From the NCBI GenBank assembly GCA_913061365.1, contig CAJXUT010000011.1, positions 1 to 32,882 of the forward strand: a DNA stretch of 32,882 bases, in the 5' to 3' direction. The translations under genes were made by a program, and so were the position numbers. The stretch comes from an uncultured Colwellia sp. (GTDB lineage Bacteria > Pseudomonadota > Gammaproteobacteria > Enterobacterales > Alteromonadaceae). The stretch's first letter is position 1; every line of letters begins with the position of its first letter. Shown here one piece after another: positions 146-32,882 of this stretch. The notes beneath the pieces are model-generated. The model ran no database searches. It was not told the origin of the DNA and saw only the letters and a program-made list of their open reading frames with translations.

Positions 146-1378
146 CTAAAGTAATATTTCTAAAACACTTGGCTGACTTAAAAAGTCTTTTGGACTAGCA
201 GAAGCGCCATAGGCACCAGATTGATATACCACAACAAAATCACCCTCCACAGCCATAGGTAACAATACCTCTTGGGCTAGAATATCCAATGGAGTACATA
301 AGGGGCCAACAATATTAACTATTTGCTGATTGCTGACTGGAGATGCCTGTAATCTATTACCTATAGTGACAGGATAATTTTTTCGAATAATTTGGCCAAA
401 ATTTCCTGAATTTGATAGATGGTGATGTAGTCCCCCATCACATACTAAATATGTTTTATCGCGAGAGATCTTTTTATCTGTTATTTTTGTGACGTATATG
501 CCAGATTCTCCTACAATATAGCGGCCGAGCTCTAAAATTAGATCAATTGATTCTAAATTAGTCGCTTGTTCAAGCAGAATTGACAGGTTTTTACAAATTG
601 CATTTATATTTAGTCTGGTATCTCCTGGAAAATATGGGATACCAAATCCTCCACCAATATTAATATACTGAATGTTAATAGGCGTTAGTTCGATAAGCTT
701 CTGAATTAATTCAAATGTTTTATTATGCATTTCAATAATAGCATCATGGCTTAAGCTTTGAGAGCCAGCAAAAATATGGAATCCTCTGAAATTAATTGTC
801 TCATAATTTAAATGCTTAAGTATGTTTGGCAGTCGCTCTTCATCTATACCAAATGGTTTAGAGCCTCCAGACATCTTCATACCTGAAGCTTTTAACTCAA
901 AAATAGGATTTACTCTAATTGCAATATTAGCTTTAATCTTAAGGCTTTTACTAAAGTGTATTATTTTCTTAATTTCATTTTCAGATTCAACATGCAGAGT
1001 AATACCAGCAATGATAGAAGCTTGAATATCATCACTTGTTTTACCGGGTCCAGCAAAGCTTATTTCCTCTGGTTCGATACCTGTTTGTAGAGCAAGAAGC
1101 ATTTCATTTTTTGAAGCAACATCAAACCCAGAAACTAAAGGTTTAATAAAATGAACAATAGCCGGAAGAGGATTTGCTTTAATTGCATAATGTAGCTTTA
1201 TCTGGCTTGGTAATTTTTGATTTAGTTGGTTGATGGTGTGTTGTATAACTTGTTTATCATAGGCATAGTAAGGTGTTCTACCGACAAGTAATTCTATTTG
1301 AGAAAGTGATTTTCCTCCGATTATTAGCTGATTATCTTGTTGTTGAAATTGATCCATAACAGTATGTTCTTTATTCAT
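146..1378 (-). CDS. Pyridoxal-dependent decarboxylase, exosortase A system-associated
   Basis: This 410-aa protein is a fold-III PLP decarboxylase of the diaminopimelate/ornithine decarboxylase type. Visible landmarks are HYAIKANP (63-70) with the PLP lysine at K67, H201 in HIFAGSQ, the glycine-rich phosphate loop GGGFG (242-246), ELGRY (283-287), and GPLCTPLD (358-365) with C361 as the probable catalytic cysteine. The family that accompanies exosortase A loci is recognised from the combination with the adjoining AMP ligase, PrsT and GNAT acyltransferase. The substrate is unknown; decarboxylation of an amino acid, possibly carrier-bound, to an amine is the inference. It is the last gene of the leftward operon, 6 bp after the ligase stop. 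The Shine-Dalgarno is weak, and a second in-frame ATG seven codons in is possible. Plain lysA is unlikely given the neighbours. Confidence 0.87.
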   Translation of the reverse strand: MNKEHTVMDQFQQQDNQLIIGGKSLSQIELLVGRTPYYAYDKQVIQHTINQLNQKLPSQIKLHYAIKANPLPAIVHFIKPLVSGFDVASKNEMLLALQTGIEPEEISFAGPGKTSDDIQASIIAGITLHVESENEIKKIIHFSKSLKIKANIAIRVNPIFELKASGMKMSGGSKPFGIDEERLPNILKHLNYETINFRGFHIFAGSQSLSHDAIIEMHNKTFELIQKLIELTPINIQYINIGGGFGIPYFPGDTRLNINAICKNLSILLEQATNLESIDLILELGRYIVGESGIYVTKITDKKISRDKTYLVCDGGLHHHLSNSGNFGQIIRKNYPVTIGNRLQASPVSNQQIVNIVGPLCTPLDILAQEVLLPMAVEGDFVVVYQSGAYGASASPKDFLSQPSVLEILL

Positions 1379-1384
1379 TATAAT

Positions 1385-2971
1385 TCATTCCATTATATAA
1401 TTAGCGTAACTTTGCTTAAGAAGATTTCTATCTACCTTACCGTTTGAATTATAGGGCATGTCTTTTACTATAATTATTTTTTTGGGGTACATGTAAGTAG
1501 GTAAACATTTTTGACAATGCACCTGAATGGAGTGTATTGTGTTTAACTCATCACCCAGGGTATCTGAATTTACAATGGCTAAAATAGCTTGTCCCAATGA
1601 GCTATGCGGTACACCGATAACGGCACAATCTAAAACTGCACTATGTTGAAATAAAGCTTCTTCTACCTCAAGGGGACTTAATCGATAGCCAGAAGACTTA
1701 ATCATATCATCGTGTCTGGCAACAAAGTAAATATATCCATCATTGTCTTTTTTAACATAATCTCCTGACCATACAGCTAGTTCTGTTGGTATTATTTCTG
1801 TTGGTTTTTTTGGGGCATTTTTGAAGTGCTTTGCTGTTTCTATTGGCTTATTCCAATAACCTAAACTAACTAAAGGACCCTTGTGAACTAGTTCACCAAT
1901 TTCACCTGATTTACATTCTGTACCATCACTTTTTAAAACTAAGACTTCAGCATTGGGAATAGCCTTGCCAATAGAACCAACTTTTTTGTCTATTTCGCTA
2001 GGGTGTAAATAGGTTGAGCGAAAAGCTTCGGTTAGCCCATACATTAAGTATGGATCTGCGAGAGGCATAATTTTTCTGAGTTTAGCTAAAGTATCTGATG
2101 TCATTGCTCCACCGGAGTTCGTGAAGTATCTAATAGAGTTACTAGCTTCTTTAGGCCACTTGATATTACAAAGTTTAGCCCATAAGGTTGGCACTGCTGC
2201 AAGCCCAGTTACATTATGTTTAGTAATAGCTTTGGGAATATCAGAAGCTAAAAGGTAATCAAATAAAATACAATTTGCTCCAACTAAAAAGCTTGTTGTT
2301 AACTGACTAAGACCGTAATCAAAACTCAATGGTAATAGAGCCATAATGTTATCTTCGCGGGAATTGTGCAAGTATTTGGCAACTGACTTAGCTCCTTCTA
2401 CTAGGTTACGGTGAGAAAGTACAACTCCTTTAGGTTTTCCTGTTGAGCCAGAAGTATATAAGATAGCTGCAATATCATTTCCTGTTCCTTTGGCTACCCC
2501 TTTGCCTTTTGATTGAGTAGATAAGAAGCTCGACCATGATAAAATTAAAGTTTTATTAAATGTCGAGTCTTCAACTCCGTCTACAACAATAATATGTGTT
2601 AAACTCATAGGTAATTTAGCGCTATGTGTAATAGCTAATAAACGAGCGCTATTGGTGATGAGTATTTTAATACTACAATCTTCAATGATGTGTGTGACTT
2701 GCGGTGACTTTAAAACAGGGTTTACTGGTACAAAAACTCCTCCAGCCTGGCTTATGCCAATGAAAGAGCTAACAGCTTCAAATGTTTTAGGTAAATAGAT
2801 GCCGACACGATCAAACTGCTCTATATTTAAAGCTTTTAAACTGTTTGTGATAGATGATGCATTTTTTTGCAGCTCTTGGTAGCTTAACTTGTGATCTTTA
2901 AGAGTTAAAGCAATTGAATTAGGATAATTTACAGAGCTATATTGGATGAGATCATGAAATAAAACGGGCAT
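1385..2971 (-). CDS. AMP-forming acyl-CoA ligase, exosortase A system-associated
   Basis: This 528-aa adenylate-forming enzyme of the ANL superfamily activates a carboxylate as an acyl-AMP and transfers it to CoA or a carrier-protein thiol. Landmarks in order are the P-loop-like LYTSGSTGKPKG (171-182), YGLTEAFRS (311-319), the GDY aspartate (402-405), the hinge region ARHDDMIKSSGYR (418-430), and the catalytic lysine K512 in NSNGKVDR. All catalytic motifs are present, so the gene looks intact. It is 6 bp upstream of the PLP decarboxylase, the standard pairing in exosortase A accessory clusters. In other genomes an acyl carrier protein often lies next to this pair; none is visible here. The natural substrate is not known. 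The start has only a weak Shine-Dalgarno (TTGG about 9 bp upstream). Confidence 0.87.
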   Translation of the reverse strand: MPVLFHDLIQYSSVNYPNSIALTLKDHKLSYQELQKNASSITNSLKALNIEQFDRVGIYLPKTFEAVSSFIGISQAGGVFVPVNPVLKSPQVTHIIEDCSIKILITNSARLLAITHSAKLPMSLTHIIVVDGVEDSTFNKTLILSWSSFLSTQSKGKGVAKGTGNDIAAILYTSGSTGKPKGVVLSHRNLVEGAKSVAKYLHNSREDNIMALLPLSFDYGLSQLTTSFLVGANCILFDYLLASDIPKAITKHNVTGLAAVPTLWAKLCNIKWPKEASNSIRYFTNSGGAMTSDTLAKLRKIMPLADPYLMYGLTEAFRSTYLHPSEIDKKVGSIGKAIPNAEVLVLKSDGTECKSGEIGELVHKGPLVSLGYWNKPIETAKHFKNAPKKPTEIIPTELAVWSGDYVKKDNDGYIYFVARHDDMIKSSGYRLSPLEVEEALFQHSAVLDCAVIGVPHSSLGQAILAIVNSDTLGDELNTIHSIQVHCQKCLPTYMYPKKIIIVKDMPYNSNGKVDRNLLKQSYANYIME

Positions 2972-3071: not shown

Positions 3072-5096
3072 TTATGAGTCTTTTTCATAACGTAACTCAT
3101 TAAGACTTAGTCTAACAGATCTACTTGTAGGTGTAGTACTTCGACCAATTCGCCCCATAAATACTGCACGTTTAACATTTTCTTCTCCAATAAGTTTTTT
3201 AAAGTCTTTATCAATAGCAATAACATTCTTTTTTGTGAATTCTTCAGTGCTAAAATCAATATTATTACGTAAATACTCTGAAAATATTACAGGTGTTTGT
3301 TCTGGTTGAAAACCAAGTTGTAGCTGAGTTGCTTGCAACCAAAAACGTTGAATAGCAGCACCAGCAGCTAAGTAATCATCGAGTGATTTTGGTTCTTCAT
3401 CAGCAACGATAATAAAATGTGCGCAGCTTTTTATGGAGGTTGAAAAATCCAATAATAATTTTGGCGCAATTGTGCCTGCTAGATATTTGTCTAAAAAGCG
3501 AAATCGTGACCAACTTTTTAACGACCACTTCGTTAATGCGATAGTTATTGGGTCGATACCTAATGATTTTGCAGGTAATTTATCTTTACTAAAGGTTGAA
3601 TTACAATTCTTTTCTACGCTAGTGTCTTGACTGATAGGCGTAAACTCCATTATTTTAGAGTGAACATCATAGCCTTCCTTCATACTTAGACGCGTAGTGG
3701 AATTCCCATACATAAATTTAGCTACGGTCCAGCGCTCGGAGAATGATTCTTTCCAGATTACTGAAAAGCCTTCAGGTAAAATATTAGTGAGTTTTTGCTT
3801 CTCAATTGATGAGAGTCTTTTAGTTCCCATACGTTTACGCTGAACGCAACGTGTTTTTATATATGGGAAAAGAGAATGAGGAGGCAAAGCCTCTGTAGCT
3901 GGTGTAAGTGTCAGTGCGAAAGTTGGGTATTTGCTGTACCCCTCATCTTCGGGAGCCTTACCAAATTTATTTATGGTTAGATGAATGTCTAATTGATAAT
4001 TTAATGATTGCGCTGCTATTTTGCAGTTCTCGATGAAGCAACCAAGTGCCAATTTACTCGCATTACCTTGTAAGTCATAAACGACATGATCGCGTGTATC
4101 AAACCCATGTATATTGCAGGTTAAATCACTAAGCACTTCAATACGTTGTGGTTGAATATTATCACCACTAGGGGCCCATTTTGCGTATTCAAAAATTTCC
4201 TCAATAGGCTTTAAATCATCATTGTTTTTTAATTTTGGAGTTGGCGCTAAAACAATTTTTCTAGCTATTTTGAACATAATTCTAGGAAGGAGCCCTCTAT
4301 TACCAAAAGGTCTCCATGTCTTTTTCAACTTGTTACGGTATGCATCAAAATGAAGCCCGTAGGGTGCTGCAAGCACCTCTCCACGGTTAAGTAATATTTT
4401 TAAGGCATAAGTTTCAGCCACACCTGCACATAAACTGACAGCCATTGCTGTAGAAGGCCCTCGTTTTTCAATAAAACTAACTCGACTCTCATCTACTAAA
4501 TAAGGACGTTGTAACATTGCAGGTGATAAGCCTATAAGAAACTGAATCAGTTGATCGTCTTCTGTTTTTTTATCTTCAAAACGAAAATATTCCTCAAAAG
4601 TCATTTTACCAGGCATAAAACAAAGTAACGCACAGCCCATACCTAAAGGAGCTGCGGTAATTATGGGAATGTTTTTTACTCGGCATTTTTCAAAAATTAC
4701 TTTACGTGCGGATAATGCGAAGAAGTCTAGGGCATCAACATACAAATCAATACCTTCTAAAAATTCATCAACGTTATGTTCAAATACTCCTTCTTGAAAG
4801 GAAATTATCTTGGCATCAGGGTTAATATCCTTAGCCATGCGCTCCATTACATCAACTTTTTGCTCACCAAGAGTAGACATAAAAGCACCAGATTGGCGAT
4901 TAAAATTATGTACTTCAAAGTCATCAAAATCAGCAATGTTAAAGTTTTCAACACCTAAACGAGCTAACGTTACTAAATGAATGCCTCCGACTCCACCGGC
5001 ACCAGCAATGGCAACGTTCTTATTTCTTAATATCTGTTGCTCTTCTTCTGTAACCCAGCCAATATTTCGTGAAAAAGCTTTATTGTAATCAAACAT
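3072..5096 (-). CDS. ThiF/E1-like adenylyltransferase fused to a nitroreductase-like domain
   Basis: This 674-aa two-domain protein has an N-terminal E1/ThiF/MoeB-type Rossmann domain with AGAGGVGG (31-38), ADFDDFEVHNFNRQ (55-68), lysine K80 and DALD (121-124). This fold adenylates the C-terminal carboxylate of a protein or peptide. The paired CxxC zinc site of MoeB/ThiF is not visible. From about residue 295 a nitroreductase-like FMN domain begins with APSGDNIQPQR (308-318). It has a long middle segment, a typical late helix at about 573-595 and GRIGRS near 648-653. The architecture resembles the mycobacterial Rv1355c ('MoeY') family. An AAGGA ribosome-binding site lies 8 bp before the ATG. 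It sits 26 bp after the epimerase gene in the same leftward run. Its role in an exosortase-associated polysaccharide operon is unknown; peptide or carrier modification is an inference. Confidence 0.85.
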   Translation of the reverse strand: MFDYNKAFSRNIGWVTEEEQQILRNKNVAIAGAGGVGGIHLVTLARLGVENFNIADFDDFEVHNFNRQSGAFMSTLGEQKVDVMERMAKDINPDAKIISFQEGVFEHNVDEFLEGIDLYVDALDFFALSARKVIFEKCRVKNIPIITAAPLGMGCALLCFMPGKMTFEEYFRFEDKKTEDDQLIQFLIGLSPAMLQRPYLVDESRVSFIEKRGPSTAMAVSLCAGVAETYALKILLNRGEVLAAPYGLHFDAYRNKLKKTWRPFGNRGLLPRIMFKIARKIVLAPTPKLKNNDDLKPIEEIFEYAKWAPSGDNIQPQRIEVLSDLTCNIHGFDTRDHVVYDLQGNASKLALGCFIENCKIAAQSLNYQLDIHLTINKFGKAPEDEGYSKYPTFALTLTPATEALPPHSLFPYIKTRCVQRKRMGTKRLSSIEKQKLTNILPEGFSVIWKESFSERWTVAKFMYGNSTTRLSMKEGYDVHSKIMEFTPISQDTSVEKNCNSTFSKDKLPAKSLGIDPITIALTKWSLKSWSRFRFLDKYLAGTIAPKLLLDFSTSIKSCAHFIIVADEEPKSLDDYLAAGAAIQRFWLQATQLQLGFQPEQTPVIFSEYLRNNIDFSTEEFTKKNVIAIDKDFKKLIGEENVKRAVFMGRIGRSTTPTSRSVRLSLNELRYEKDS

Positions 5097-5122: not shown

Positions 5123-6127
5123 TTATTGATAAAAATCCTTATACCACTGTACGAAATTTTCCACCCCTTTTTCTACATTCATTGTTGGCTTATATTTAGT
5201 AACAGCAAATAGATCGTCAACATCAGCATATGTTTGATAAACATCGCCAGGTTGCATCGGCATTAAATTCTTATTGGCGGTAACCCCTAGAGATTTCTCT
5301 AAAGACTGAATAAAATTGAGAAGTTTGACTGGATTACCATTACCAACATTAAAAATTTTATAGGGGGCGGAACTTGTTGCTGCGGAACTTTTTTCAACAG
5401 ACCAATTGTTATCCTTTTGGGGAATGATATCTTGAATTCTTAGGATACCTTCGACAATGTCATCGATATAAGTGAAGTCTCTGCGCATATCACCATTATT
5501 ATAAACATCGATAGTTTCACCATTCTCTATTGCTTTGGTAAATTTAAATAATGCCATATCTGGGCGACCCCAAGGGCCATAAACAGTAAAGAACCTAAGT
5601 CCTGTAGTGGGAATATTATACAAATGAGAATAAGTATGTGACATTAACTCATTAGACTTTTTAGTGGCAGCATAAAGCGAGATAGGATGATCTACAGTAT
5701 CAGAGGTAGCAAAGGGAACTTTGCTATTTAACCCATAAACTGAACTTGATGATGCATAGACTAAATGCTGTACATTATTGTGACGACAACCTTCTAATAT
5801 GGTTAAGTGGCCAATTAAATTTGAATCAGCATAGGCCATCGGATTATCTATAGAGTAGCGAACACCTGCTTGCGCGGCTAAATGTATTACTCGCTCGAAT
5901 TTCTCTTTTGAAAATAACTGGGCGATGCTTTCTCGATCAGCTAAATCAAGTTTGATAAAGGTAAATAAAGAGCAATCTTTTAAACAATTTAAGCGCGCTA
6001 ATTTAAGATTTACATCATAATAGTCATTCAGATTGTCAATGCCAATAACCTCATGGCCTTGGTCGCATAATCGCTGTATTACATGAAAACCAATAAAGCC
6101 GGCAGCACCTGTTACTAAAAATTTCAT
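5123..6127 (-). CDS. NAD-dependent UDP-sugar epimerase (UDP-glucuronate 4-epimerase type)
   Basis: This 334-aa short-chain dehydrogenase of the extended type has the NAD-binding motif GAAGFIG (7-13), D31 in DNLNDYYD, the serine cluster ASSSSVYG (125-132), and the catalytic pair Y152/K156 in LYAATKK. The DNLNDYYDVNLK segment is typical of UDP-glucuronate 4-epimerase and CapI/WbpP-type enzymes. Being downstream of ugd, whose product makes UDP-glucuronate, it most likely produces UDP-galacturonate for an exopolysaccharide. Exact substrate specificity (GlcA, GlcNAc or GalNAcA) cannot be decided from sequence alone. AGGA lies about 5 bp before the ATG. Confidence 0.86.
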   Translation of the reverse strand: MKFLVTGAAGFIGFHVIQRLCDQGHEVIGIDNLNDYYDVNLKLARLNCLKDCSLFTFIKLDLADRESIAQLFSKEKFERVIHLAAQAGVRYSIDNPMAYADSNLIGHLTILEGCRHNNVQHLVYASSSSVYGLNSKVPFATSDTVDHPISLYAATKKSNELMSHTYSHLYNIPTTGLRFFTVYGPWGRPDMALFKFTKAIENGETIDVYNNGDMRRDFTYIDDIVEGILRIQDIIPQKDNNWSVEKSSAATSSAPYKIFNVGNGNPVKLLNFIQSLEKSLGVTANKNLMPMQPGDVYQTYADVDDLFAVTKYKPTMNVEKGVENFVQWYKDFYQ

Positions 6128-6272: not shown

Positions 6273-7613
6273 TTATTTTTTTTGAATGCTCTCACCACGA
6301 CCAATGCCATAATAAGCGAAACCTTTTTCTTTAAGTAATACAGGATCATACAAGTTACGTCCATCAATGATAACTTTGTGCGCTAATGTTTTGGCTATCA
6401 GTTCAAAATCAGGTGCTCTAAATTGGCTCCATTCAGTACAAATAACTAGAGCATCGGCTCCATTTAATGCCGACTCCTTGGTGCCAACTAATGATAAATC
6501 ATCTCGGTGTCCATATATACGCTGGCATTCTTCCATTGCTTCTGGATCATAGGCTTGTACTTTTGCACCAGCTTGCCATAATGACTCCATTAGTACCATC
6601 GCAGATGCTTCACGCATATCATCTGTTTGTGGTTTAAATGATAAGCCCCAAATGGCGATAGTTTTACCTGCTAATTCACCACTAAAATAATTATGTAAAT
6701 TCTGGTATAGCTTTTGTTTTTGCGCATAATTAACTGATTCAACGGCTTCTAAGAGAGCAGGTTTATAATCAATGCCATGAGCAGTGCGTACTAACGCTTG
6801 TACATCTTTAGGAAAACATGAACCACCATATCCACAGCCAGGGTAAATAAATTGATAGCCAATGCGAGAATCTGAACCGATCCCATGACGTACAGCTTCA
6901 ATATCAGCACCTAAAAGTTCAGCTAAATTAGACATTTCGTTCATGAAGCTTATTTTGGTCGCTAACATACAATTGGCTGCGTATTTAGTTAATTCAGCTG
7001 AACGTACATCCATAAAAATCATACGGTCATGATTACGATTAAATGGTGCGTATAATTCACGCATAGCTGCTTTGGCAGAATCACTTTCGGTGCCTACAAT
7101 TATTCTATCGGGCTTCATGCAATCGCTAACTGCAGCACCTTCTTTTAGAAACTCAGGGTTTGATACAACATTAAACTCTAAATTTAGCACACGTGAAGCA
7201 AGTACTTTGGCAACTTTTGCAGAGACTTTATCTGCAGTTCCAACGGGCACTGTTGATTTGTTGATTATTATTTTAGGAGAGTTCATATGAGTTGCGATAG
7301 TTTCGGCTACAGATAACACATACTTTAAGTCTGCTGAACCATCTTCATCGGGAGGAGTACCTACTGCAATGAATTGCATGTCACCGTGCTCAACACCTGC
7401 TTTAGCATCAGTCGTGAAGTTCAGTTGACCGCTTTTGTATGTCTCCTCGACTAAAGGTGTTAAACCAGGTTCATAGATGGGAATTATCCCTTTTTTAAGG
7501 TCATCAACTTTTGTTTGGTCAACATCAACACAAACCACATCATGGCCAACTGATGCTAATACTGCTGCCTGTACTAAGCCAACATAACCAATACCAAAAA
7601 CTGTAAGTTTCAT
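6273..7613 (-). CDS. ugd: UDP-glucose 6-dehydrogenase
   Basis: This 446-aa cytosolic enzyme oxidises UDP-glucose to UDP-glucuronate with two NAD+. It shows the N-terminal GxGxxG (GIGYVG, 7-12), the aspartate end of the second strand (VCVDVD), the lysine in ELTKYAAN (K210), and the catalytic cysteine C266 in [10 protein letters not shown]. Length and domain layout are those of the normal family. It is the first gene of the leftward exosortase-associated operon, with AAGG 7 bp before the ATG and a candidate sigma-70 promoter at 7654-7683. The 145-bp gap to the downstream epimerase contains no gene and no clear terminator, so co-transcription is plausible but not shown. Confidence 0.95.
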
Positions 7614-7756: not shown

Positions 7757-7785
7757 TTGTCGAAGCATTTTCTATAGCTTATGAT
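7757..7785 (+). promoter_or_regulatory. Candidate sigma-70 promoter of manC-manB
   Basis: TTGTCG (7757-7762) and TATGAT (7780-7785) are separated by exactly 17 bp. The predicted start near 7792 leaves a leader of about 30 nt before the ATG at 7823. This also argues against an ATG at 7781, which would lie inside the -10 box. Confidence 0.6.
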
Positions 7786-7822
7786 ACTTCTATATACGCT
7801 AAATTCTTTAATGGACCCCCTA

Positions 7823-9268
7823 ATGAACGTTCGTAATCTTATTCCAGTTATCATGTGTGGTGGCAGTGGAACCCGTCTTTGGCCACTTTCTCGTGCGCAA
7901 TTTCCTAAACAGTTTTTACCGTTAGTCAACGATACAAGTATGTTGCAAGACACGTTAGCTCGCTTACCAAAACAGCACCAAGCGCCTGTATTTATTTGTA
8001 ATGAAGATCATCGCTTTTTAGTGGCAGAGCAGATTAAGCAAACCAATAGTCCTCAAACAACTATTTTACTCGAACCAAAAGGACGAAATACAGCGCCAGC
8101 AGTGGCATTAGCGGCTCTTAATGCTCTGATTGATAATGATGACGCCTTGTTATTAGTTTTAGCCGCTGATCATGTTATTAAGGATGTTGAAAAATTCCAT
8201 CAAGCGGTAGATGTGGCAACAACTGCAGCAGCAGAAGGGAAGCTAGTTACTTTTGGTATTGTTCCAACACATGCTGAGACTGGTTATGGTTATATTCAAA
8301 AAGGTTGTCAGACAGAAAAAAATAATGATATTCAGCAAGAAAATGATGTATATCAAGTGGCAAAATTTGTTGAAAAACCGGATGTTAAAACAGCACAAGC
8401 GTATTTAGATTCAGGTGAGTACTTGTGGAATAGCGGTATGTTTCTTTTTAAAGCAAGTCGCTATATAGAAGAATTAGAAAAATTTAGGCCTGATATTTTA
8501 TCTGCTTGCAGAACATCAATGTTGAAAATAGATAAAGACCTTGATTTTACTCGTCCTGACCGAGAATCATTTTTACAATGTGCAGAAGAGTCAATTGATT
8601 ATGCTGTGATGGAAAAAACTGAAGATGCGGTTGTTGTGCCACTTGATGCAGGCTGGAGTGATGTTGGATCATACTCAGCACTTTGGGAGGTTTCTCAGCA
8701 AGATGAACAGCATAATGTTCTTAAAGGTGATGTGATTGCGCATAATACAAGTAACAGCTACATCCATAGTCAAAATAAATTGGTAGCAACACTTGGGGTT
8801 GATAATTTAGTTGTGATTGATACACCTGATGCGGTATTAATTGCTGATAAAAATAAAGTCCAAAATGTTAAAGAAATTGTAAATGATTTGAAGGCTCAGC
8901 AGCGTAGTGAAAGTACAGTTCATCGTGAGGTTTATCGACCGTGGGGGAAATACGATAGCGTTGATACTGGCGAGCGTTTTCAAGTAAAGCGCATCACAGT
9001 AAACCCAGGTGCTAAACTTTCTGTACAAATGCATCATCACAGAGCAGAGCATTGGATTATTGTTTCAGGTACAGCAAAAATAACCCTTGATGAGAAGACC
9101 TTCTTATTGAGTGAGAATCAATCTACATATATTCCTATTGGCGTGGTACATGCGTTAGAAAATCCAGGCAGGCTACCATTAGAAATGATTGAGGTTCAAT
9201 CAGGTAGTTATTTAGGAGAAGATGATATTGTTCGCTTTGAAGATCGTTATGGTAGGGTAGAAAAATGA
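7823..9268 (+). CDS. manC: Mannose-1-phosphate guanylyltransferase / mannose-6-phosphate isomerase
   Basis: This 481-aa bifunctional enzyme makes GDP-mannose from mannose-1-phosphate, and its C-terminal cupin interconverts fructose-6-P and mannose-6-P. The nucleotidyltransferase signature [12 protein letters not shown] (13-24) with FPKQF follows immediately after the start. The type II isomerase cupin occupies about 366-481 with its metal-binding cluster MHHHRAEHW (403-411). The reading frame is open back to 7781, but the start at 7823 (MNVRNLIPV) gives the family's normal N-terminus and lies downstream of the candidate promoter. An ATG at 7811 is also possible, as the Shine-Dalgarno is poor. 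The stop overlaps the manB start by 4 bp (ATGA), indicating translational coupling. Confidence 0.94.
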
Positions 9269-10656
9269 CAGAATTAACATGTTTCAAAGCTTATGACATT
9301 CGTGGAAAGCTTGGTGAAGAGCTAAATACGGATATTGCTTATCGCATTGGCCGTGCTTTTGCACAACATACCAAAGCAACAAAAGTTGTGGTGGGTGGAG
9401 ATGTGCGACTCACAAGTGAGGAGCTGAAATTAGCACTTGCAAAGGGGTTAATGGACGGTGGCTGTAATGTTATAGATCTCGGTTTATGTGGTACTGAGCA
9501 TATATATTTTGCAACTAGCCACTTACATTGTGATGGCGGTATCGTGGTAACTGCGAGTCATAATCCTATTGACTATAACGGGATGAAGCTTGTACGAGAA
9601 AATTCAAAACCTATCAGTGGAGATACGGGGCTTTTTGATATAAAAACATTAGCAGAAGAAAATAATTTTAGTGATGTTAAATGTAAAGGCCAGCTAAGCT
9701 CTTATGACATAACACAGTCATATACAGAACATTTATTAACGTATATTGAAACGAAAAATATCTCTTTATTAGAACGACCATTGAAATTGGTTGTCAATGC
9801 AGGTAACGGCACAGCTGGCCCTGCGTTAGATGCAATTGAATCTACCTTTCAACAGTTAAATGTACCTGTTGAATTTATCAAAGTACATCATAAACCTGAT
9901 GGAAACTTTCCTAATGGAATTCCAAATCCTTTATTGGTTGAGAATCGATCAGCAACACGTGATGCAGTTATTAAGCATAAAGCTGACTTAGGAATAGCAT
10001 GGGATGGCGATTTTGATCGTTGCTTCTTGTTTGATGAACGAGGTGAATTTATTGAAGGCTATTATATTGTTGGCCTGCTAGCTGAGAATTTTTTAGCTAA
10101 AGCAAAGAGTACAGGGACTACGCAACAAAAAATAATTCATGATCCCCGCTTAACCTGGAATACCATTGATATTGTTGAACAAAGTGGTGGTCAAGCTATT
10201 CAAAGTAAAACGGGGCATGCTTTTATTAAAGAACGCATGAGAAATGAAGATGCTATTTATGGTGGTGAAATGAGTGCCCATCACTATTTTCGAGATTTCT
10301 TTTACTGCGATAGCGGTATGATCCCATGGTTATTAATTACAGAGTTAATTTGTCTACGTAAACAGCCCTTATCAAGTTTAGTGGCTGCACGTATTGCAGC
10401 TTATCCCTCTTCTGGTGAAATTAATAACAAGCTGAAAGATCCAAAAGGAGCGATTGCCAGCGTATATGAACATTATCAAGTTGACGCACAAATAATAGAT
10501 GATACAGATGGTGTTAGTATGGAATTTGGCAATTGGCGCTTTAATTTACGTAGTAGTAATACGGAACCTGTCGTTCGCCTTAATGTTGAATCTAAAGGTG
10601 ACACTTCATTGATGCAAACTAAAACGAAAGAATTATTAGCGTTACTATTAAATTAA
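9265..10656 (+). CDS. manB: Phosphomannomutase
   Basis: This 463-aa alpha-D-phosphohexomutase converts mannose-6-phosphate to mannose-1-phosphate, the substrate of the preceding ManC. The phosphoserine loop [13 protein letters not shown] places the catalytic serine at S98. The metal-binding loop is DGDFDR (248-253), the sugar-binding loop [10 protein letters not shown] follows, and the C-terminal phosphate-binding motif RSSNTEP is present. All four active-site loops are therefore intact. The start codon overlaps the manC stop (ATGA) and is preceded by AGGG within manC. The pair provides GDP-mannose for the exopolysaccharide; phosphoglucomutase activity is also common in this family. Confidence 0.93.
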
Positions 10657-10776: not shown

Positions 10777-13536
10777 ATGAAATTTGTTAAATCTATAGTT
10801 TGTGCCAGTGTTATTCTGGCTGTATCTGCTTGTGGAACTGATGAAACATCACAAACACATTTAGTACAAGCCGAGAAGCTTTTAGCAGAAAAGGATCAAT
10901 CATCAGCAGTAATCTCATTAAAAAATGCGATTAAGTTAGATCTGAAAAATGCTAAAGCGAGATTTTTACTCGGGCGAGTATATTTAGCCTCTGGTGATGG
11001 TTATAGCGCTGAAAAGGAGTTGGAGCGCGCTCTAGAGTTAAACTATGATATTAATAAAGTGCTGCCTTTGCTCGCACGAGCGTATATGATCACCGAATCT
11101 GATAACGATATACTTTCACTTTCAAAACAAGCAGAGTTGCTAGTTTCAGCAAGTAAAGCACAGTTTTTAGCTTACAAAACAATTGCAGCTTTACGTTTGG
11201 ATAACGAAGAACTTGCCAATGACACTGTAGAGCAAGTGTTATCAATTTCTGAAGTTGATAGTTATAGCTTGTTGGCTAATGCATATTTAGCTTTTGCTCA
11301 AAAAAACACTGCTCGTGCTGCTGTCTTAGTAGGAAGAATTTTAACGGCAACACCTGATAATACTGATGCGTTAATGCTACAAGGCCAAGTTGCCATCGTA
11401 GATAAAAATTACTCACAAGCTGTTACTAGTTTTGAAAAGTATTTTACACTTCAGCCTCGCTCTAGCAAGGTACAGTTATTTATTGCAGATGCCTTATTGA
11501 AAAATGGACAGCATTTGAAAGCCGAAGCTATTGCAGATAACTTGTTAGTTAAAGTACCTAATCAAGCTTTTTTACAATATATAAAAGCAATGGTTCGCTT
11601 TGAAATGAAAGACTATGAAGCTGCGAGTAATTTTTCTAGTTCATCACTGTCTTCAGGCTTTAGTTCATTTAGTTTAAAACTCGTTGCGGGAGCGAGTGCC
11701 TTTTATTTAAAAAACTATGAGCAATGCCATTTACATTTAAAAGATGTTATTAGCTATTTACCCTCTGACCATGCAGCACGAAGAATGTTTGCAGTTAGTC
11801 AATTACAGCTTGGACTGATTGATGATATAAGTGAAACAATGGGTGACTATGACTCAACTAATGAAGCAGATTCTCAGTTTTTAGCTGCACTAAGTTATGA
11901 GTTACTGGAACGAGGAGCCTATGAAAAAGCACAGGAGCTAGCCAAAAGCATTACCGATGGCTCTGAAAAAAGTACTCAAAAAAATGCGAAACATAGTGCT
12001 AGAGCAGGGATTTTGAAGCTGATGATGAATGATCCATCAGGTATTGAAAATTTAGAATTAGCATTACAACAAAACCCTGAATTAATCTCTGCTGAGCTTG
12101 CATTGGCCTTTGCTTCAATTAAAGCGGGTGATTTAGTTCGAGCTAATGAAATTGCGAATAAATGGCTAAAAGAATACCCTACAAAGGCGGGTGGTTACAA
12201 TTTAAAAGCAACAATTGCATTTGCGCAAAATGAATTAGCGAAAGGAAAGATTGAATTAGAAAAAAGTTTATCTTTGGAGCCTAAAAATGTCTATGCCTTA
12301 ACGGAAATGATAAAGCTTGCTAATTACCAAAAAAACTCATCTAAAGCAAAAGAATTAGCAGAAAAAGCGCTTGCTGCTCATCCTGAAAACCTTAAAGTAT
12401 TAGCATTATATTTCGAATTACATAAAAATAAAGAAGCTTTACAACCACTGATATCAGCACAAAAAAATAATGTATCAGAGATTAAATATGGCCTTTTATT
12501 ATCAGAAGCATTGATTCAATTAAAAGAATATAAGCAGGCGCGTAGTGTATTGGATAATTATCAAATTACCAATACAACACCAAAGCGTTATTGGCAGTTG
12601 ATCTTGGCTATAAATTCGAAACAAAAAAACACTAATGAAGCCCTGTTGATTTTAGAAAAGTGGCGTAAAAACAACCCGTATCATATTGAGCCAGTGCTAT
12701 TATTAGTAAACCATTGGACAGCTAAACGTGTGCCAGGTCGTGCTTTAAATGTATTAAAAAACAGCATGAAACAACATCCTAATAATTTAGTACTTCATTT
12801 AGTGAAAATGCAGGTTTTACTCAATAGCAAGCAATCAAAGGAAGCAAGAAACTCACTAAAAAAATTATCATCATTTGATTTTGATAAAGATATTAAGGCA
12901 GGTATAGAAGGGCGGATTTTGCTATTAGAGGGGAAGTTTTCTGAGGCAGTTCCTAAATTAACACAGCTATACCAAGCTAAGCCTAGTAGTCAGAATGTTA
13001 TTTTTTTGGCTCAAGCACATGAAGGTACAAATCAAAAACAAACCGCCATTAATATACTTGAAAAACATTCACAAAAAAATGGCATACAGCCGAGCGTTAG
13101 CTTAAATCTAGCGAACTTGTATTTATTTAGTGATCAGAAAAAAGCAATAATGGAATATGAAAAGCTTATCAAAATTCAGCCTAATAATATTATTGTATTG
13201 AATAATTTATCTTGGTTATATTTAGAAAATAATTTATCTTCTAAAGCATTAGTACATGCGAAGAAAGCATACTATTTATCACCTGAAGTCGCTGACGTTG
13301 TAGATACCTACGCACAAGTTTTGTTCAAATCGGGTGAGAAAGAACAAGCCTTAGCTAAAGCAGAAGAGGCGTATAAAATATCAAAAATGAAAAATATTGA
13401 TATTGCACTTAACTTTGTCGAAATACTATTAGCAAACAGTGACAAGGCACAGGCAAAGAGTTTATTACGAAAAATTAATGTAGAAACTAAACTGCAAAAA
13501 ATTAAGCACCAGAAGTTAACAGAGCAACTATTATAA
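10777..13536 (+). CDS. prsT: XrtA/PEP-CTERM system TPR-repeat lipoprotein PrsT
   Basis: This 919-aa exported protein has a lipoprotein signal peptide with lipobox VSAC, acylated cysteine C19, and aspartate at +3 after it (CGTD). The rest is an almost continuous array of tetratricopeptide-like helix pairs, for example around residues 25-95, 195-245 and 480-545. Length and layout fit the PrsT family, which is found with exosortase A and is thought to act in envelope assembly or export of the associated exopolysaccharide. A clear AGGA site lies 7-8 bp upstream of the ATG. It follows manB by 120 bp in the same direction, with no terminator seen between them. This gene is the strongest marker that the region belongs to an XrtA system. 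Confidence 0.88.
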   Translation: MKFVKSIVCASVILAVSACGTDETSQTHLVQAEKLLAEKDQSSAVISLKNAIKLDLKNAKARFLLGRVYLASGDGYSAEKELERALELNYDINKVLPLLARAYMITESDNDILSLSKQAELLVSASKAQFLAYKTIAALRLDNEELANDTVEQVLSISEVDSYSLLANAYLAFAQKNTARAAVLVGRILTATPDNTDALMLQGQVAIVDKNYSQAVTSFEKYFTLQPRSSKVQLFIADALLKNGQHLKAEAIADNLLVKVPNQAFLQYIKAMVRFEMKDYEAASNFSSSSLSSGFSSFSLKLVAGASAFYLKNYEQCHLHLKDVISYLPSDHAARRMFAVSQLQLGLIDDISETMGDYDSTNEADSQFLAALSYELLERGAYEKAQELAKSITDGSEKSTQKNAKHSARAGILKLMMNDPSGIENLELALQQNPELISAELALAFASIKAGDLVRANEIANKWLKEYPTKAGGYNLKATIAFAQNELAKGKIELEKSLSLEPKNVYALTEMIKLANYQKNSSKAKELAEKALAAHPENLKVLALYFELHKNKEALQPLISAQKNNVSEIKYGLLLSEALIQLKEYKQARSVLDNYQITNTTPKRYWQLILAINSKQKNTNEALLILEKWRKNNPYHIEPVLLLVNHWTAKRVPGRALNVLKNSMKQHPNNLVLHLVKMQVLLNSKQSKEARNSLKKLSSFDFDKDIKAGIEGRILLLEGKFSEAVPKLTQLYQAKPSSQNVIFLAQAHEGTNQKQTAINILEKHSQKNGIQPSVSLNLANLYLFSDQKKAIMEYEKLIKIQPNNIIVLNNLSWLYLENNLSSKALVHAKKAYYLSPEVADVVDTYAQVLFKSGEKEQALAKAEEAYKISKMKNIDIALNFVEILLANSDKAQAKSLLRKINVETKLQKIKHQKLTEQLL

Positions 13537-13555: not shown

Positions 13556-13589
13556 CTAGTTGCCCTAAAGTGATAATTAAGGCAATTAG
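13556..13589. terminator. Hairpin between convergent prsT and acyltransferase genes
   Basis: CTAGTTGCC (13556-13564) pairs with GGCAATTAG (13581-13589) with one G-U wobble. The stem extends by TAA/TTA past one mismatch. It overlaps the acyltransferase stop codon and lies 20 bp after the prsT stop. There is no good U-tract on either strand, so it is at best a weak bidirectional terminator or an mRNA 3'-end hairpin. Confidence 0.4.
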
Positions 13590-14404
13590 CTTAGTTCTTT
13601 TAGTTGCTGAGAAATATCATGTTCAATGGCTTTATACAGATTTTTAAAACCAGGTGATAAATTTGATAAAAATATCTCAGGGTTAATATAGTAGGGCGCT
13701 CTTAGGCCGTGATAATCTATTGGCTCGCCAAGTTGTTGAAACTTAATGCCTACAAATTTCATACTACGTGCTAAGCGTGGCTCCATCATTACATAAGCAT
13801 GCCTAACGCCAGTTTCTATTGCCATATTTGCGGCTGCCATATATAAACCTATGGCAATAAAAGGAAAGCAACGTAACTCAACCTCAGAATAATTGCTTTC
13901 CTGAATGACACCTGTTCCAGAGCCTTTAAATTGATCTGTTTTACGTCGTCTAAAATCAGATTTGACAGCTAAGCGAGATATTTCACAAATTTCTTTTCTA
14001 TTAAAGCGGCTAGGGTGAAGTGTTTCGTCGGTGATAGAATCGAGGCAAAACTTTTCAATGGGTAACAGCTGTCCTTCTTCCTCGATTCGAACTACACGCA
14101 CGCAACTAGTATAATTGTTTGAAGGCTTATGTTTAATTAGCGAAAAAATAGATTGTTCATCGAATTCATCTCTTTCTTCTCCGCCTTCCTTTACTTCTTC
14201 AAAGGCAAGTTCTTCACAATAGACATTGTGTCGTATTTTAAAAGCTTCGGCCTTTAAAGCATCATTCACAGCTACTTGCGGCTCTAGGAACTGGGTGAAG
14301 TGTTCTGCGATATTATAAGCTTCATGGCTCACTTTCATCGAGACTATTTTTTTTGTTATATCGCCAATAATGGGAGTATTGAGTAGGCGTTTATTCCAGT
14401 TCAT
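13586..14404 (-). CDS. PEP-CTERM/exosortase system-associated acyltransferase (AHL-synthase-like GNAT)
   Basis: This 272-aa protein has the N-acyltransferase layout shared with LuxI-type autoinducer synthases. The elements are EAFKIRHNVYCEEL (53-66), the acidic loop with FDEQS (81-85), CVRVVR (101-106), and the basic segment EICEISRLAV (138-147) followed by FRRRK (151-155). This is the pattern of the acyltransferase family tied to PEP-CTERM/exosortase systems. The acyl donor and acceptor are unknown; transfer of a fatty acyl group to an amine is the inference, which would fit the PLP decarboxylase in the same locus. GGA lies 6 bp before the ATG. It follows the patatin gene by 131 bp in the same direction and converges on prsT. 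Confidence 0.83.
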   Translation of the reverse strand: MNWNKRLLNTPIIGDITKKIVSMKVSHEAYNIAEHFTQFLEPQVAVNDALKAEAFKIRHNVYCEELAFEEVKEGGEERDEFDEQSIFSLIKHKPSNNYTSCVRVVRIEEEGQLLPIEKFCLDSITDETLHPSRFNRKEICEISRLAVKSDFRRRKTDQFKGSGTGVIQESNYSEVELRCFPFIAIGLYMAAANMAIETGVRHAYVMMEPRLARSMKFVGIKFQQLGEPIDYHGLRAPYYINPEIFLSNLSPGFKNLYKAIEHDISQQLKELS

Positions 14405-14535: not shown

Positions 14536-15402
14536 TTAATTTGTCATATTTTCTTTTGCTCTAAATATTGGCTGACTAATTGGCGACGTATTTGTCTTAA
14601 TCGGAACAATTTCTAATGCAGTTTGGTAACCAATATCAAAGAGTTGTAATTTCTGTTCATCTGTCATACCAAAATCGACACCAGAACACTCCCCTGTATT
14701 TATAACTACAGTATTATGCCAAAAAGCATCGTTAATATATTCACGAGAAATAGTGGTCATAAAGGTGCGAATCAGTAATGTTATGTAATTAACTATGGGA
14801 AAATAAGGATTAGTTTTTGGTTCATCATATTCATACTCACTTCGTAGCCTGAAACACATCACAGGAGTTTCATCTTTGGCCCAGTTTCTATGTAGTGCAT
14901 CTTCAGATAGTATACTGCCATCAACCATGAGATGTTTGCCGAACGGCTTAAAACTAAATACAAGCGGAATAGACATAGAAAAACGTACAGCCTTAGATAC
15001 TCTCATATTGGGTGTATTTTCTTTATTAAAAATTACAGGTTTACCACTTCTTACATCAGTAGCTACAACATGTAATTCCATTTCCATTTGAGAAAATGTT
15101 TTTCCTTGTAGATGATCATCCACCCACTTTTCAAATACATCCCCTGAGCTTAAACCACCGTTACGTATTAGTTTAAATAAAGAGAAACCTGTAAATTGAG
15201 TATAATCAGTGGTGAGGGCTATATCCTTTATATCCTCTATACTAATGCCTGAAGCAAATAAGCTAGCAATAATACTACCGCCCGACACGCCAACAATATT
15301 ATCAAATTGTATTTGAAGCTTGCTCAAAGCTTGTAATACACCAAGATGGGCAGGTAAACGTGTTCCTCCACCAGCGAGTATAGGAACAATCTTTTCAGTC
15401 AT
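14536..15402 (-). CDS. Patatin-like phospholipase family protein
   Basis: This 288-aa patatin-fold lipid acyl hydrolase has the oxyanion glycine loop GGGTR (11-15), the nucleophile elbow GVSGG with S40 (38-42), and the catalytic aspartate D161 in VDGSI. The Ser-Asp dyad is complete. No signal peptide or membrane segment is evident, so it probably acts on the inner face of the membrane or in the cytosol. The start at 15402 is chosen because GGAG lies 7 bp upstream; a longer version from 15423 would place that site inside the coding region. It lies upstream of the exosortase-associated acyltransferase in the same direction, so the two may act on the same lipid pool. That functional link is inference. 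Confidence 0.87.
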   Translation of the reverse strand: MTEKIVPILAGGGTRLPAHLGVLQALSKLQIQFDNIVGVSGGSIIASLFASGISIEDIKDIALTTDYTQFTGFSLFKLIRNGGLSSGDVFEKWVDDHLQGKTFSQMEMELHVVATDVRSGKPVIFNKENTPNMRVSKAVRFSMSIPLVFSFKPFGKHLMVDGSILSEDALHRNWAKDETPVMCFRLRSEYEYDEPKTNPYFPIVNYITLLIRTFMTTISREYINDAFWHNTVVINTGECSGVDFGMTDEQKLQLFDIGYQTALEIVPIKTNTSPISQPIFRAKENMTN

Positions 15403-15447
15403 GTTATTTCTCCGTGGTAACATTTATTATGGCTGATATTTAAAATT

Positions 15448-15478
15448 TTGCTTTAAGATACTTCAAATAAGGTATTAT
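15448..15478 (+). promoter_or_regulatory. Possible promoter of the serine protease gene
   Basis: TTGCTT (15448-15453) and TATTAT (15473-15478) are separated by 19 bp, which is longer than ideal. The -10 box lies about 42 bp before the ATG. Weak candidate only. Confidence 0.35.
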
Positions 15479-15519
15479 ATTTAAAACAGAATGTAGAATA
15501 CAGTAATTGGAAGAAAGCA

Positions 15520-16287
15520 ATGTTAAAAAAAGCATTAATTATATTATCAATTTTTAGTTTGGCGTATATTACTCCTACAAAAGCTGAATTTGTTGACGTC
15601 GTTGCAAAGATAAAACCTTCCGTGGTTGGTATTGGAGTTCATACGCCTACAAGCAGACCTCAAAATATATTACGAGGAACTGGGTTTGTTATTGGTGATG
15701 GCCGATATATCGTCACTAATGCTCATGTATTACCAACCGAACTGGATGATAATTTACTGCAAAAAATGGCTGTATTTGTTGGTTCTGGAAGAAATTCAAA
15801 AGTAAGAAAAGCAAAAATTGTTATTACTTCGAAATTATATGATTTAGCAATATTGAAGATTTCAGGTTCACCTTTACCTGCGATGAGTTTAGCCGACCAA
15901 AAAATCCGTCCTGATGGGAGTTATATTGCGTTTACGGGATTTCCTATAGGTGCTGTGTTAGGTCTTTACCCCGTGACCCATAGAGGCATTATTTCTAGTC
16001 TTACTCCAACCGTTACCCCTGCGCAAACAGCCGGGCAAATTAGCTTAAAAATGTTAAAAAGAATGCGTAATCCTTATTTTGCTTATCAACTTGATGCAAC
16101 TGCATATCCTGGAAATAGTGGTAGCGCTATGTATGATATGAAAACAGGTGAAGTTCTCGGAATTATAAATAAAGTGTTTGTACAAACAACTAAAGAAGCA
16201 GTGATAAGTAACCCTAGTGGTATTACTTATGCTATTCCAGTCAAATATTTACATGAAATATTAAAAGAAAATAATATTAAATTGTAG
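15520..16287 (+). CDS. Exported trypsin-like serine protease (S1 family, no PDZ domain)
   Basis: This 255-aa protein has a Sec signal peptide (KK then a hydrophobic run, probable cleavage after TKA at residue 22). A chymotrypsin-fold protease domain follows, with the complete triad H69 (IVTNAHV), D108 (YDLAIL) and S200 (PGNSGSAM). It resembles the protease half of DegP/HtrA proteins but ends about 50 residues after the serine, so there is no PDZ domain. It probably acts in the periplasm. GGAAG lies about 7 bp before the ATG. It is divergent from the patatin gene at the edge of the exosortase-associated region. A link to processing of exported PEP-CTERM proteins is possible but unproven. Confidence 0.85.
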   Translation: MLKKALIILSIFSLAYITPTKAEFVDVVAKIKPSVVGIGVHTPTSRPQNILRGTGFVIGDGRYIVTNAHVLPTELDDNLLQKMAVFVGSGRNSKVRKAKIVITSKLYDLAILKISGSPLPAMSLADQKIRPDGSYIAFTGFPIGAVLGLYPVTHRGIISSLTPTVTPAQTAGQISLKMLKRMRNPYFAYQLDATAYPGNSGSAMYDMKTGEVLGIINKVFVQTTKEAVISNPSGITYAIPVKYLHEILKENNIKL

Positions 16288-16312
16288 TGAGATAACTCAA
16301 AGCGCTGCTTCT

Positions 16313-17089
16313 TTATTCGCTACTAGCTATTTGAGCTTGATAGTCGTCTTCTACAGAATATAAAGCTGATAGGGAGACAAGTTCGATATTATTTTGTGCT
16401 AATGTTGGTATTAAGCGTATTAAGGCTTTGATGGTTTCAGGATGTGGGTGAGCAATTGCAATTGCAAAATGATGATTTTGAGCCTGCTTAATTAACAATT
16501 GGAATTGTTGATTTATATAATTATCGGTTAGCTGGTTGTCCAAGAAAACATGCCGCCCTTGTACAGGCACACCTAATTTTTGGGCAATAATACTTGCCTT
16601 GGAATACGGACTCGTTTTACTGTCCAAGAATAATAAACCATGTTGTTTAAGAAAGCCCATTGTCCAATACATTGGCTCGGCTAGTTGTGTTAAATGGCTG
16701 CCCATATGATTATTGATACCGATGGCAAAAGGCACTTCAGCTAAAGATTGACTTAAGCTGGCATGAATTTCTACTTTATTCATGCTGCTTGTTAGCGCAC
16801 CAGGACCTAACTTTTTACCATTTTCAGCTTCCATTGGAATATGAAGCAATACTTCTTTTTGGTTAGCGTTGGCTTTCGTTGCTAGCATTTTACCATAAGG
16901 AGTATGGGGCAAAACTGAATAGGTGATAGAGCCGGGAAGTGTTAATACATTTTTATCTGAATATCGATAGCCTATATCGTCAATTACAATTGCAATACGC
17001 GCGGTTTTTTCTTGCGCAGATACTGTAAATAGTAATGAAGTAAACGATAGTATTATTAGAAGGTAGAATTGCGACACGGTTGAAATCAT
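16313..17089 (-). CDS. yibQ: Divergent polysaccharide deacetylase family protein (YibQ-like)
   Basis: This 258-aa exported protein has an N-terminal hydrophobic signal segment (about 8-22, likely cleavage after VSA at 25). A divergent NodB/polysaccharide-deacetylase domain begins at RIAIVIDDIG (31-40), with HIPMEA, GINNHMGS and FLDSKTS segments typical of the family. Its biochemical activity is not established in general. It comes last in the leftward order gpmI, envC, yibQ, the same order as in enterobacteria, which supports a role in cell-envelope or peptidoglycan maintenance. No Shine-Dalgarno is apparent before the ATG. Confidence 0.86.
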   Translation of the reverse strand: MISTVSQFYLLIILSFTSLLFTVSAQEKTARIAIVIDDIGYRYSDKNVLTLPGSITYSVLPHTPYGKMLATKANANQKEVLLHIPMEAENGKKLGPGALTSSMNKVEIHASLSQSLAEVPFAIGINNHMGSHLTQLAEPMYWTMGFLKQHGLLFLDSKTSPYSKASIIAQKLGVPVQGRHVFLDNQLTDNYINQQFQLLIKQAQNHHFAIAIAHPHPETIKALIRLIPTLAQNNIELVSLSALYSVEDDYQAQIASSE

Positions 17090-31757: not shown

Positions 31758-31842
31758 AGTAAAGTCAAATAGTGGTTGATTATGTTTTTGCTACTATACT
31801 TTAAAGCGCGAAGTCATTTATAAAATTTTTGAAAGGATGTTT

Positions 31843-32832: not shown

Positions 32833-32882
32833 CTGTCTCTTATACACATCTCCGAGCCCACGAGACGTAGAGGAATCTCGTA
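32833..32882. other. Nextera i7 adapter read-through (artefact)
   Basis: The Tn5 mosaic end (CTGTCTCTTATACACATCT, 32833-32851) continues into the Nextera i7 adapter, then an 8-base index GTAGAGGA, then the start of the flow-cell sequence (ATCTCGTA). It is not genomic. It happens to keep the reading frame of the last gene open. Confidence 0.97.

Follow-up and report, generated by a model that had tools for sequence, protein, structure and literature searches.

A ThiF-flavin fusion protein of a Colwellia contig: a probable oxazolone synthetase in an N-acyl amino acid pathway linked to exosortases

The window analysed here, a contig of an uncultured Colwellia sp. taken at its full length of 32,882 nucleotides (CAJXUT010000011.1), encodes on its minus strand a protein of 674 residues that joins a ThiF (E1-like) adenylation domain to a flavin domain of the flavin mononucleotide (FMN) nitroreductase type. 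This fusion is probably an oxazolone synthetase of the OxzB/TrzS type, acting in an N-acyl amino acid pathway that is linked to exosortases. The assignment is based on the two-domain anatomy, the conserved residues, the linkage to an N-acyltransferase gene, the joint presence with exosortases across genomes and the nested pattern in which relatives lack the last step. The compound made would most likely be an unusual amino-acid lipid, formed by a known kind of enzyme in a setting of surface-sorting and sugar genes.

Architecture and predicted chemistry of the fusion protein

The fusion, its two domains and the candidate partner are located as follows.

3072..5096, minus strand: ThiF plus FMN nitroreductase-type fusion, 674 residues (exact open reading frame (ORF), translation, Pfam, structure model)
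4323..5072, minus strand: ThiF domain, residues 9-258 (PF00899 and an alignment of 55 fusions)
3093..4226, minus strand: flavin (FDO/nitroreductase-type) domain, about residues 291-668 (family models, alignment, structure match)
13586..14404, minus strand: exosortase-associated acyltransferase, OxzA candidate (TIGR03694, 262 bits against a cut-off of 112)

The initial annotation had recognised one protein with E1-like and nitroreductase-like domains, and the translation indeed contains AGAGGVGG, DFDDFEVHNFNRQ and APSGDNIQPQR. In a Pfam search PF00899 (ThiF) matched residues 9-258 (E 7.8e-41), and the match to PF00881 (Nitroreductase) was confined to residues 560-598 (E 5.4e-6, 27.1 bits versus a cut-off of 23.5). 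The flavin half is covered better by the Rv1355c-family model, with its best stretch at residues 291-668, and the Acg-family model spans residues 301-603; both scores are below the family cut-offs. The ThiF half belongs to PRK08223 (NF006077, "hypothetical protein"; 415 bits versus 266, residues 2-282) and is up to 88% identical to the stand-alone ThiF proteins of relatives, whereas PRK14851 (NF011424) gave 329 bits over residues 5-662, below its cut-off of 1170. A thiamine or molybdopterin ThiF/MoeB identity was rejected, since the equivalog cut-offs of those models were not reached. A second ThiF-family gene, with a stronger PF00899 match than that of the fusion, is found on another contig (C31) of the same genome.

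Structure prediction, which the initial annotation had proposed as a check, agreed with the domain assignment. The AlphaFold2 model (mean pLDDT 89.7, with the 55-sequence alignment as input) resembles ThiF-like enzymes in its top Foldseek matches (AclA 9egb, ThiF 1zfn and MoeB 1jw9), and the Acg homologue 2ymv follows at rank 41 (E 6e-11, TM 0.72 by target). For AclA, a literature search returned nothing among the matches listed. In the 55 aligned fusions, that of the window included, the ThiF residues R10, D58, N66, R67, Q68, K80, D121 and D124 are invariant; from ThiF/MoeB enzymes and the alignment to TcdA we take these positions to be the nucleotide site. Equally invariant are W307, P309, S310, G311, D312, N313 and Q315 of the flavin domain, in the stretch W-x-P-S-G-D-N-x-Q. 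The two-domain anatomy is far beyond chance. Judged from the fold and the conserved residues, both domains appear to have kept their nucleotide and FMN pockets, on which the initial annotation had made its reading depend, together with the exosortase association that is described below.

The likeness to Rv1355c that had been pointed out was well seen. According to the accessible passages of PMC12856293, Rv1355c has since been named TrzS, an oxazolone-making ThiF-FDO fusion, for which ATP-driven cyclisation of N-acyl tryptophan and subsequent desaturation with O2 were established experimentally, with D217, R540 and Q651 as tested residues. The chemistry of TyzABC was likewise shown by experiment, TyzB and TyzC carrying out the same kinds of step as separate proteins, and the fusion architecture is also ascribed to Pseudoalteromonas rubra OxzB (de Rond 2021, as cited in passages of PMC10404671). 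Enzymes of this build support the combination of adenylation and flavin chemistry put forward in the initial annotation. By description (passages of PMC10404671 and PMC12856293), OxzB and the window protein have in common the ThiF-FDO fusion, a partner N-acyltransferase, OxzA, for which an AHL-synthase/FeeM-like fold is predicted in P. rubra, and a gammaproteobacterial host. In the window, too, ThiF is fused N-terminally to the FDO/nitroreductase domain (domain search, structure model) and an N-acyl amino acid synthase gene is linked, but the latter lies 8.5 kb away, and the fusion gene follows those for a dehydrogenase and an epimerase and precedes those for a ligase and a decarboxylase, within an exosortase neighbourhood. 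With TrzS the window protein shares the 1ZFN-like and 2YMV-like folds, the two PDB entries that served as references for TrzS as well (PMC12856293, in part); it differs in that the substrate of TrzS is N-acyl tryptophan and in that it stays below the Rv1355c-family cut-off. The three kinds of gene also occur unfused, with TyzB and TyzC (PMC10404671) and in the producers of thalassotalic acid, kyonggic acid and stieleriacines, where the authors termed the role of ThiF enigmatic (PMC12479983; both in the passages available). Adjacent but separate ThiF and nitroreductase (NTR) genes are likewise carried by two genomes of our family sample, G139 and G304.

The fusion is predicted to perform the ATP-dependent cyclisation and the O2-dependent desaturation of an N-acyl amino acid. 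In such a pathway the acyltransferase encoded at 13586-14404 would acylate an amino acid with a fatty acyl group. By analogy with TrzS, OxzB and TyzB, the ThiF half would then use ATP to adenylate the free carboxylate, after which a 5-oxazolone (azlactone) ring would be closed by the amide oxygen. Finally, the FMN half may use O2 to desaturate the alpha-beta bond; the product would be an unsaturated oxazolone or, once hydrolysed, an N-acyl dehydroamino acid similar to thalassotalic acid.

Partner gene, exosortases and the distribution of the flavin half

The linkage to an N-acyltransferase was followed in a family sample of 147 genomes, that of the window included, 74 of which are ThiF-positive at E <= 1e-30. 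With one TIGR03694-type hit per genome, chosen by us, the distance between this gene and ThiF is at most 300 bp in 56/74 genomes, at most 5 kb in 71/74 and, on the same contig, at most 10 kb in 73/74. The gene at 13586..14404 is the sole N-acyl-amino-acid-synthase-like gene detected in the genome of the window. Among 80 named loci (the best 80 of 488), 36 have an OxzA-type ORF within 300 bp, 4 within 2 kb and 11 within 10 kb. The profile used, which was made from family sequences, misses FeeM-type partners: in 6 of 8 inspected loci lacking an OxzA match, Pfam identified a FeeM-family synthase directly upstream. It seems that the partner activity is kept while the synthase family changes. No OxzA-ThiF fusion of the Rosetta stone kind occurred among the ORFs scanned. 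In two loci (L005, 3453-4952; L016, 2530-3831) an RND/MMPL-like gene, named by eye, directly follows OxzB/ThiF and is a candidate lipid exporter.

The initial annotation had connected the fusion to an exosortase A locus. The connection holds for exosortases in general and not for XrtA in particular. An exosortase match (E <= 0.001) is present in 74/74 ThiF-positive and 41/73 ThiF-negative family genomes (p 2.3e-12; Fisher tests, here as below, ignore the relatedness of the genomes), whereas XrtA above its cut-off is present in 45/74 and 36/73 (p 0.19). Since the contrast vanishes when XrtA alone is counted, ThiF is tied to exosortases at large. In 29 of the 74 genomes the exosortase scores 145-187 bits, under the XrtA cut-off of 208; these proteins form a distinct type that is often encoded close to ThiF. 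The phylum was sampled evenly with 398 genomes. With ThiF called by the PRK08223 cut-off and exosortases by PF09721, the exosortase was found in 15 of 16 ThiF-positive genomes and in 66/382 of the others (p 1.9e-10). The 16 genomes span seven families, ten of them belonging to that of the window; the one without exosortase is G743. Exosortase and ThiF share a contig in 59/74 family genomes (within 10 kb in 16, within 50 kb in 51) and are on different contigs in 15.

Presence of the four components is nested: of the 147 genomes 115 contain the exosortase, 106 OxzA, 74 ThiF and 11 the NTR domain, the last figure coming from a genome-wide search that misses diverged copies. The order is violated in two genomes, in one of which OxzA is cut by the contig end, versus a mean of 49 and a minimum of 36 in 2000 shuffles. 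Such nesting of exosortase, N-acyltransferase, ThiF and flavin domain looks little described. Oxazolone lipids and exosortases thus meet in these Pseudomonadota samples, where ThiF genomes are nearly always exosortase-positive and the steps are nested. The cyclase ThiF is patchy within the genus: the four other genomes (G310, G350, G381 and G407) possess an exosortase and a TIGR03694 gene and are without ThiF at E <= 1e-30.

A survey of the loci, reaching about 7-9 kb to each side of ThiF where the contig allowed, found NTR fused to ThiF in 6 of 73 relatives, adjacent in 14 (two of them weak, at 28 and 31 bits) and undetected, fused or nearby, in 53; the locus survey thus counts 20/73 plus the window, as compared with 11/147 genome-wide. 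In this respect the window differs from most members of PRK08223 in the family: a stand-alone ThiF near OxzA is the common state (for example L142-L155 and L178-L229). Twelve nucleotide-site positions of ThiF, and likewise S215 and D251, are identical in all 73 relatives, with or without NTR; C223 is variable both among the relatives with NTR and among those without. A ThiF with an intact ATP site and no flavin half nearby, as in these 53, looks little described.

In the ThiF tree the window falls in a supported group of 20 (100/93), the other 19 members of which are stand-alone and without NTR; three more NTR-less rows are placed just outside, and the sister group consists of the NTR-bearing Alteromonas, G287, G139 and G304. 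Judged by its ThiF, the genome of the window stands close to Colwellia. In the NTR tree the window pairs with an Alteromonas locus, L062 (91/80), inside a group with G139 and G304 (99/93). Both trees therefore set the window beside the same Alteromonas/G139/G304 systems. The simplest reading is that ThiF and NTR are an old pair, that the flavin half has been lost on more than one occasion and that the window has kept it. A recent acquisition of the flavin half from another source was rejected, as the NTR tree is compatible with descent. A search of viral contigs yielded a single, partial relative.

Several observations weigh against the assignment as an OxzB/TrzS-type synthetase. The fusion scores below the cut-off of the Rv1355c family (NF005901, 129 bits versus 476). 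The nearest named Pseudoalteromonas relative is a P. luteoviolacea fusion (L121) at 44% identity. The distance of 8,508 bp between OxzA and the fusion is the widest of the 73 same-contig pairs, and the two genes belong to separate runs with plus-strand genes between them. With the family-built profile no OxzA-type ORF was found in 29 of the 80 named loci, some of which are short contigs, and among those inspected L085 and L127 show no evident synthase directly upstream of the fusion. Finally, the NTR of G287 groups with Rheinheimera (93/84) and its ThiF with G139 and G304, so that co-inheritance of the two halves is not general.

PEP-CTERM genes beside ThiF and alternative readings

PEP-CTERM genes were located with a custom rule that was positive for 93 of 7,075 ORFs and for none with shuffled tails, and 29 of the 30 neighbours picked match TIGR02595; distances were measured between stop-to-stop ORFs. 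Of the 73 relatives, 46 have a PEP-CTERM ORF in the 1.5 kb downstream of ThiF and 1 has one upstream; 52 have one within 3.5 kb on either side. Counted by kilobase, starting where the ThiF(-NTR) unit ends, the downstream bins contain 46, 11, 9, 4, 9, 0 and 0 such ORFs (the stretch being present in 72 loci, falling to 43) and the upstream bins 0, 2, 0, 0, 0, 0 and 0. The nearest PEP-CTERM ORF is co-directional with ThiF in 34/47 cases, 28 of these within about 210 bp, and the neighbours belong to 11 sequence groups. The 80 named loci give the same picture, with a PEP-CTERM ORF within 3.5 kb in 43 and neighbours from 18 sequence groups in 19 named genera; here the bins are 29, 11, 3, 1, 1, 1, 0, 1, 2 and 0 downstream (71 loci covered in the first, 55 in the ninth and 5 in the last) and 1, 0, 0, 1, 0, 0, 0, 2, 0 and 0 upstream. 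In L062-L161 and L178-L229 the gene that follows ThiF/OxzB is very often a PEP-CTERM gene, of many sequence groups.

As a control we used 30 of the 32 genomes that are OxzA-positive and ThiF-negative (G320 and G412 were left out). In these a PEP-CTERM ORF occurs within 1.5 kb downstream of OxzA in 3/30, as against 46/73 from ThiF (p 7e-7, uncorrected). When both sets are measured from OxzA, up to 3.5 kb downstream, the contrast is weak (10/30 without ThiF versus 41/72, p 0.05). In seven of the control loci (L248, L252, L255, L257, L260, L262 and L264) the PEP-CTERM ORF starts about 1.7-2.1 kb past OxzA, which suggests that an unidentified gene lies between the two.

The tie between N-acyl amino acid synthesis and PEP-CTERM/exosortase genes is already published (Craig 2011; Stieleria, PMC7293339), and a PEP-CTERM gene was reported in the stieleriacine cluster in 2020 (PMC7293339); the passages of these two sources that were available neither single out the ThiF cyclase nor count its pairing with PEP-CTERM genes. 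A Rubrivivax region lists UBA/THIF genes along with PEP-CTERM and polysaccharide genes (PMC3684757, in part), and disruption of an exosortase-type N-acyl amino acid synthase in a methanotroph removed a polysaccharide band (PMC11072679, in part). In the open literature, with subscription papers mostly outside the search, no count of the ThiF/PEP-CTERM pairing appeared among the matches listed, and the placement of PEP-CTERM genes downstream of ThiF looks little described.

This placement bears on an alternative that we consider unlikely, namely that ThiF activates the N-acyl amino acid for transfer to an acceptor (a PEP-CTERM amine, a polysaccharide or a carrier), with desaturation as an optional branch. 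Saturated azlactones act as acylating agents and not as stable products, the nucleotide site is kept in all 53 relatives that are without NTR in the surveyed stretch, and PEP-CTERM genes follow ThiF closely and mostly in the same direction, a position they seldom take behind OxzA when ThiF is missing. We know of no conjugate of an N-acyl amino acid and such an acceptor, however. ThiF needs ATP and is presumably cytoplasmic, while the exosortase is modelled at the periplasmic face (PMC1569441, in part). Moreover, 41 of the 115 exosortase-positive family genomes have no ThiF match, so ThiF is not needed for sorting as such; the measurement from OxzA finds PEP-CTERM genes in its absence too; the detector found no PEP-CTERM neighbour beside the fusion among the window's ORFs; and NTR may be encoded elsewhere in the NTR-less genomes, given the diverged copies that the genome-wide search misses. 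Modification of a PEP-CTERM protein, already suggested in the initial annotation, is retained because a PEP-CTERM gene is so often the next gene in relatives. In its most specific form, which we regard as highly doubtful, the N-acyltransferase-ThiF pair would be the core of an exosortase-linked lipidation device. The azlactone or adenylate made by ThiF would be put onto a surface partner, likeliest the adjacent PEP-CTERM protein or else a co-made polysaccharide, and the flavin half, often not found, would divert the intermediate into a free, stable oxazolone. That the activated N-acyl amino acid might be a tether for a sorted protein is the most interesting possibility, though quite improbable in our estimate; if true, proteins sorted by exosortases would gain a chemical tether from the device. 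In the available passages, the moiety left on sorted proteins is named just "some new moiety" (PMC11980579) and investigators of oxazolone lipids regard their role as unresolved (PMC12856293). With the gene pairs of ordinary marine bacteria one can examine whether the lipid acts upon the sorted protein, works through it or just accompanies it.

Returning to the synthetase reading, three further explanations compete with it. The fusion could share a pathway with its two neighbours, the TIGR03098 ligase and the TIGR03099 decarboxylase, for example towards an amine-bearing lipid. All three genes point the same way, separated by 100 and 6 bp, and a ligase and/or decarboxylase is found near OxzB in 8/80 named loci (Rheinheimera, Halioglobus and others, read from a table and leaving out two loci with oversized ligase-like ORFs) and in 7/73 family loci; most ThiF/OxzB loci examined, on the other hand, have no such genes nearby, and by name both are general exosortase-cluster genes, so that a shared pathway seems improbable. 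The gene might also be a passenger, an oxazolone antibiotic or signal cassette lying by chance among polysaccharide genes. Its patchiness within the genus and the lack of preference for XrtA proper would fit, but the joint presence with exosortases in both samples, that of the family (p 2e-12) and that of the phylum (p 2e-10; neither value corrected for relatedness), and the recurrent adjacency of PEP-CTERM genes make chance placement rather implausible. Least credible, and in our view nearly excluded, is the modification of a ribosomal peptide. E1-like and flavin domains are also part of the thiazole/oxazole-modified microcin pathway, and the initial annotation had considered azole formation on this ground. 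YcaO (PF02624), though, has no match in the 90% complete genome, as compared with matches in 5/14 control genomes; the gene that accompanies the family is an N-acyltransferase; and the characterised proteins of the same domain order are oxazolone-lipid synthetases. Such peptide chemistry was rejected on the absence of YcaO, no search having been aimed at a precursor peptide.

Gene neighbourhood in the window

The other genes around the fusion are the following.

146..1378, minus strand: pyridoxal phosphate-dependent decarboxylase, exosortase A-associated (TIGR03099; co-directional neighbour)
1385..2971, minus strand: acyl-CoA ligase (AMP-forming), exosortase A-associated (TIGR03098; co-directional neighbour)
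5123..6127, minus strand: NAD-dependent epimerase/dehydratase (profile matches; co-directional neighbour, gap 26 bp)
6273..7613, minus strand: nucleotide-sugar dehydrogenase (UGDH; TIGR03026)
7781..9268, plus strand: mannose-1-phosphate guanylyltransferase/mannose-6-phosphate isomerase (TIGR01479)
9265..10656, plus strand: phosphomannomutase-like (best model NF011943, 745.6 bits, just under the cut-off of 801)
10777..13536, plus strand: PrsT, TPR protein of the XrtA/PEP-CTERM system (TIGR02917, 695 bits)
14536..15423, minus strand: patatin-like protein (PF01734)
15520..16287, plus strand: trypsin-like protease (PF13365; same conserved block as patatin)
16313..17089, minus strand: presumably a divergent polysaccharide deacetylase-like protein (blast to relatives alone; same conserved block)

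As the initial annotation had it, the fusion is placed between the sugar-nucleotide genes and the ligase/decarboxylase pair: UGDH, epimerase, fusion, ligase and decarboxylase follow one another on the minus strand, separated by 145, 26, 100 and 6 bases. Judged by this spacing the five genes may form an operon; a promoter and terminator scan of the window gave no signal (30 promoter sites versus 30.1 in shuffles). The window is the whole contig, with untrimmed Nextera-type adapter at 1-38 and 32833-32882, so the run is visible no further than the decarboxylase. The last ORF (31837..32880) is lengthened by adapter sequence.

PrsT, TIGR03098, TIGR03099 and TIGR03694 all score above their cut-offs near the fusion, which marks the region as an exosortase A/PEP-CTERM-associated locus. 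XrtA itself is absent from the window and is found in the same genome on contig C189 (303 bits, over the cut-off), surrounded by what appear by eye to be polysaccharide genes; the odd end ORF of that contig (L236) may likewise be adapter. The genome contains 8 PEP-CTERM matches over the cut-off.

The patatin, protease and deacetylase-like genes at 14536-17089 form a block that is conserved together with OxzA in Colwellia-type relatives. In 14 loci with a stand-alone ThiF an OxzA-like gene is present in 14/14 and a patatin-like gene near OxzA in 13/14; the window retains the OxzA-patatin block without the ThiF that adjoins it in those loci.

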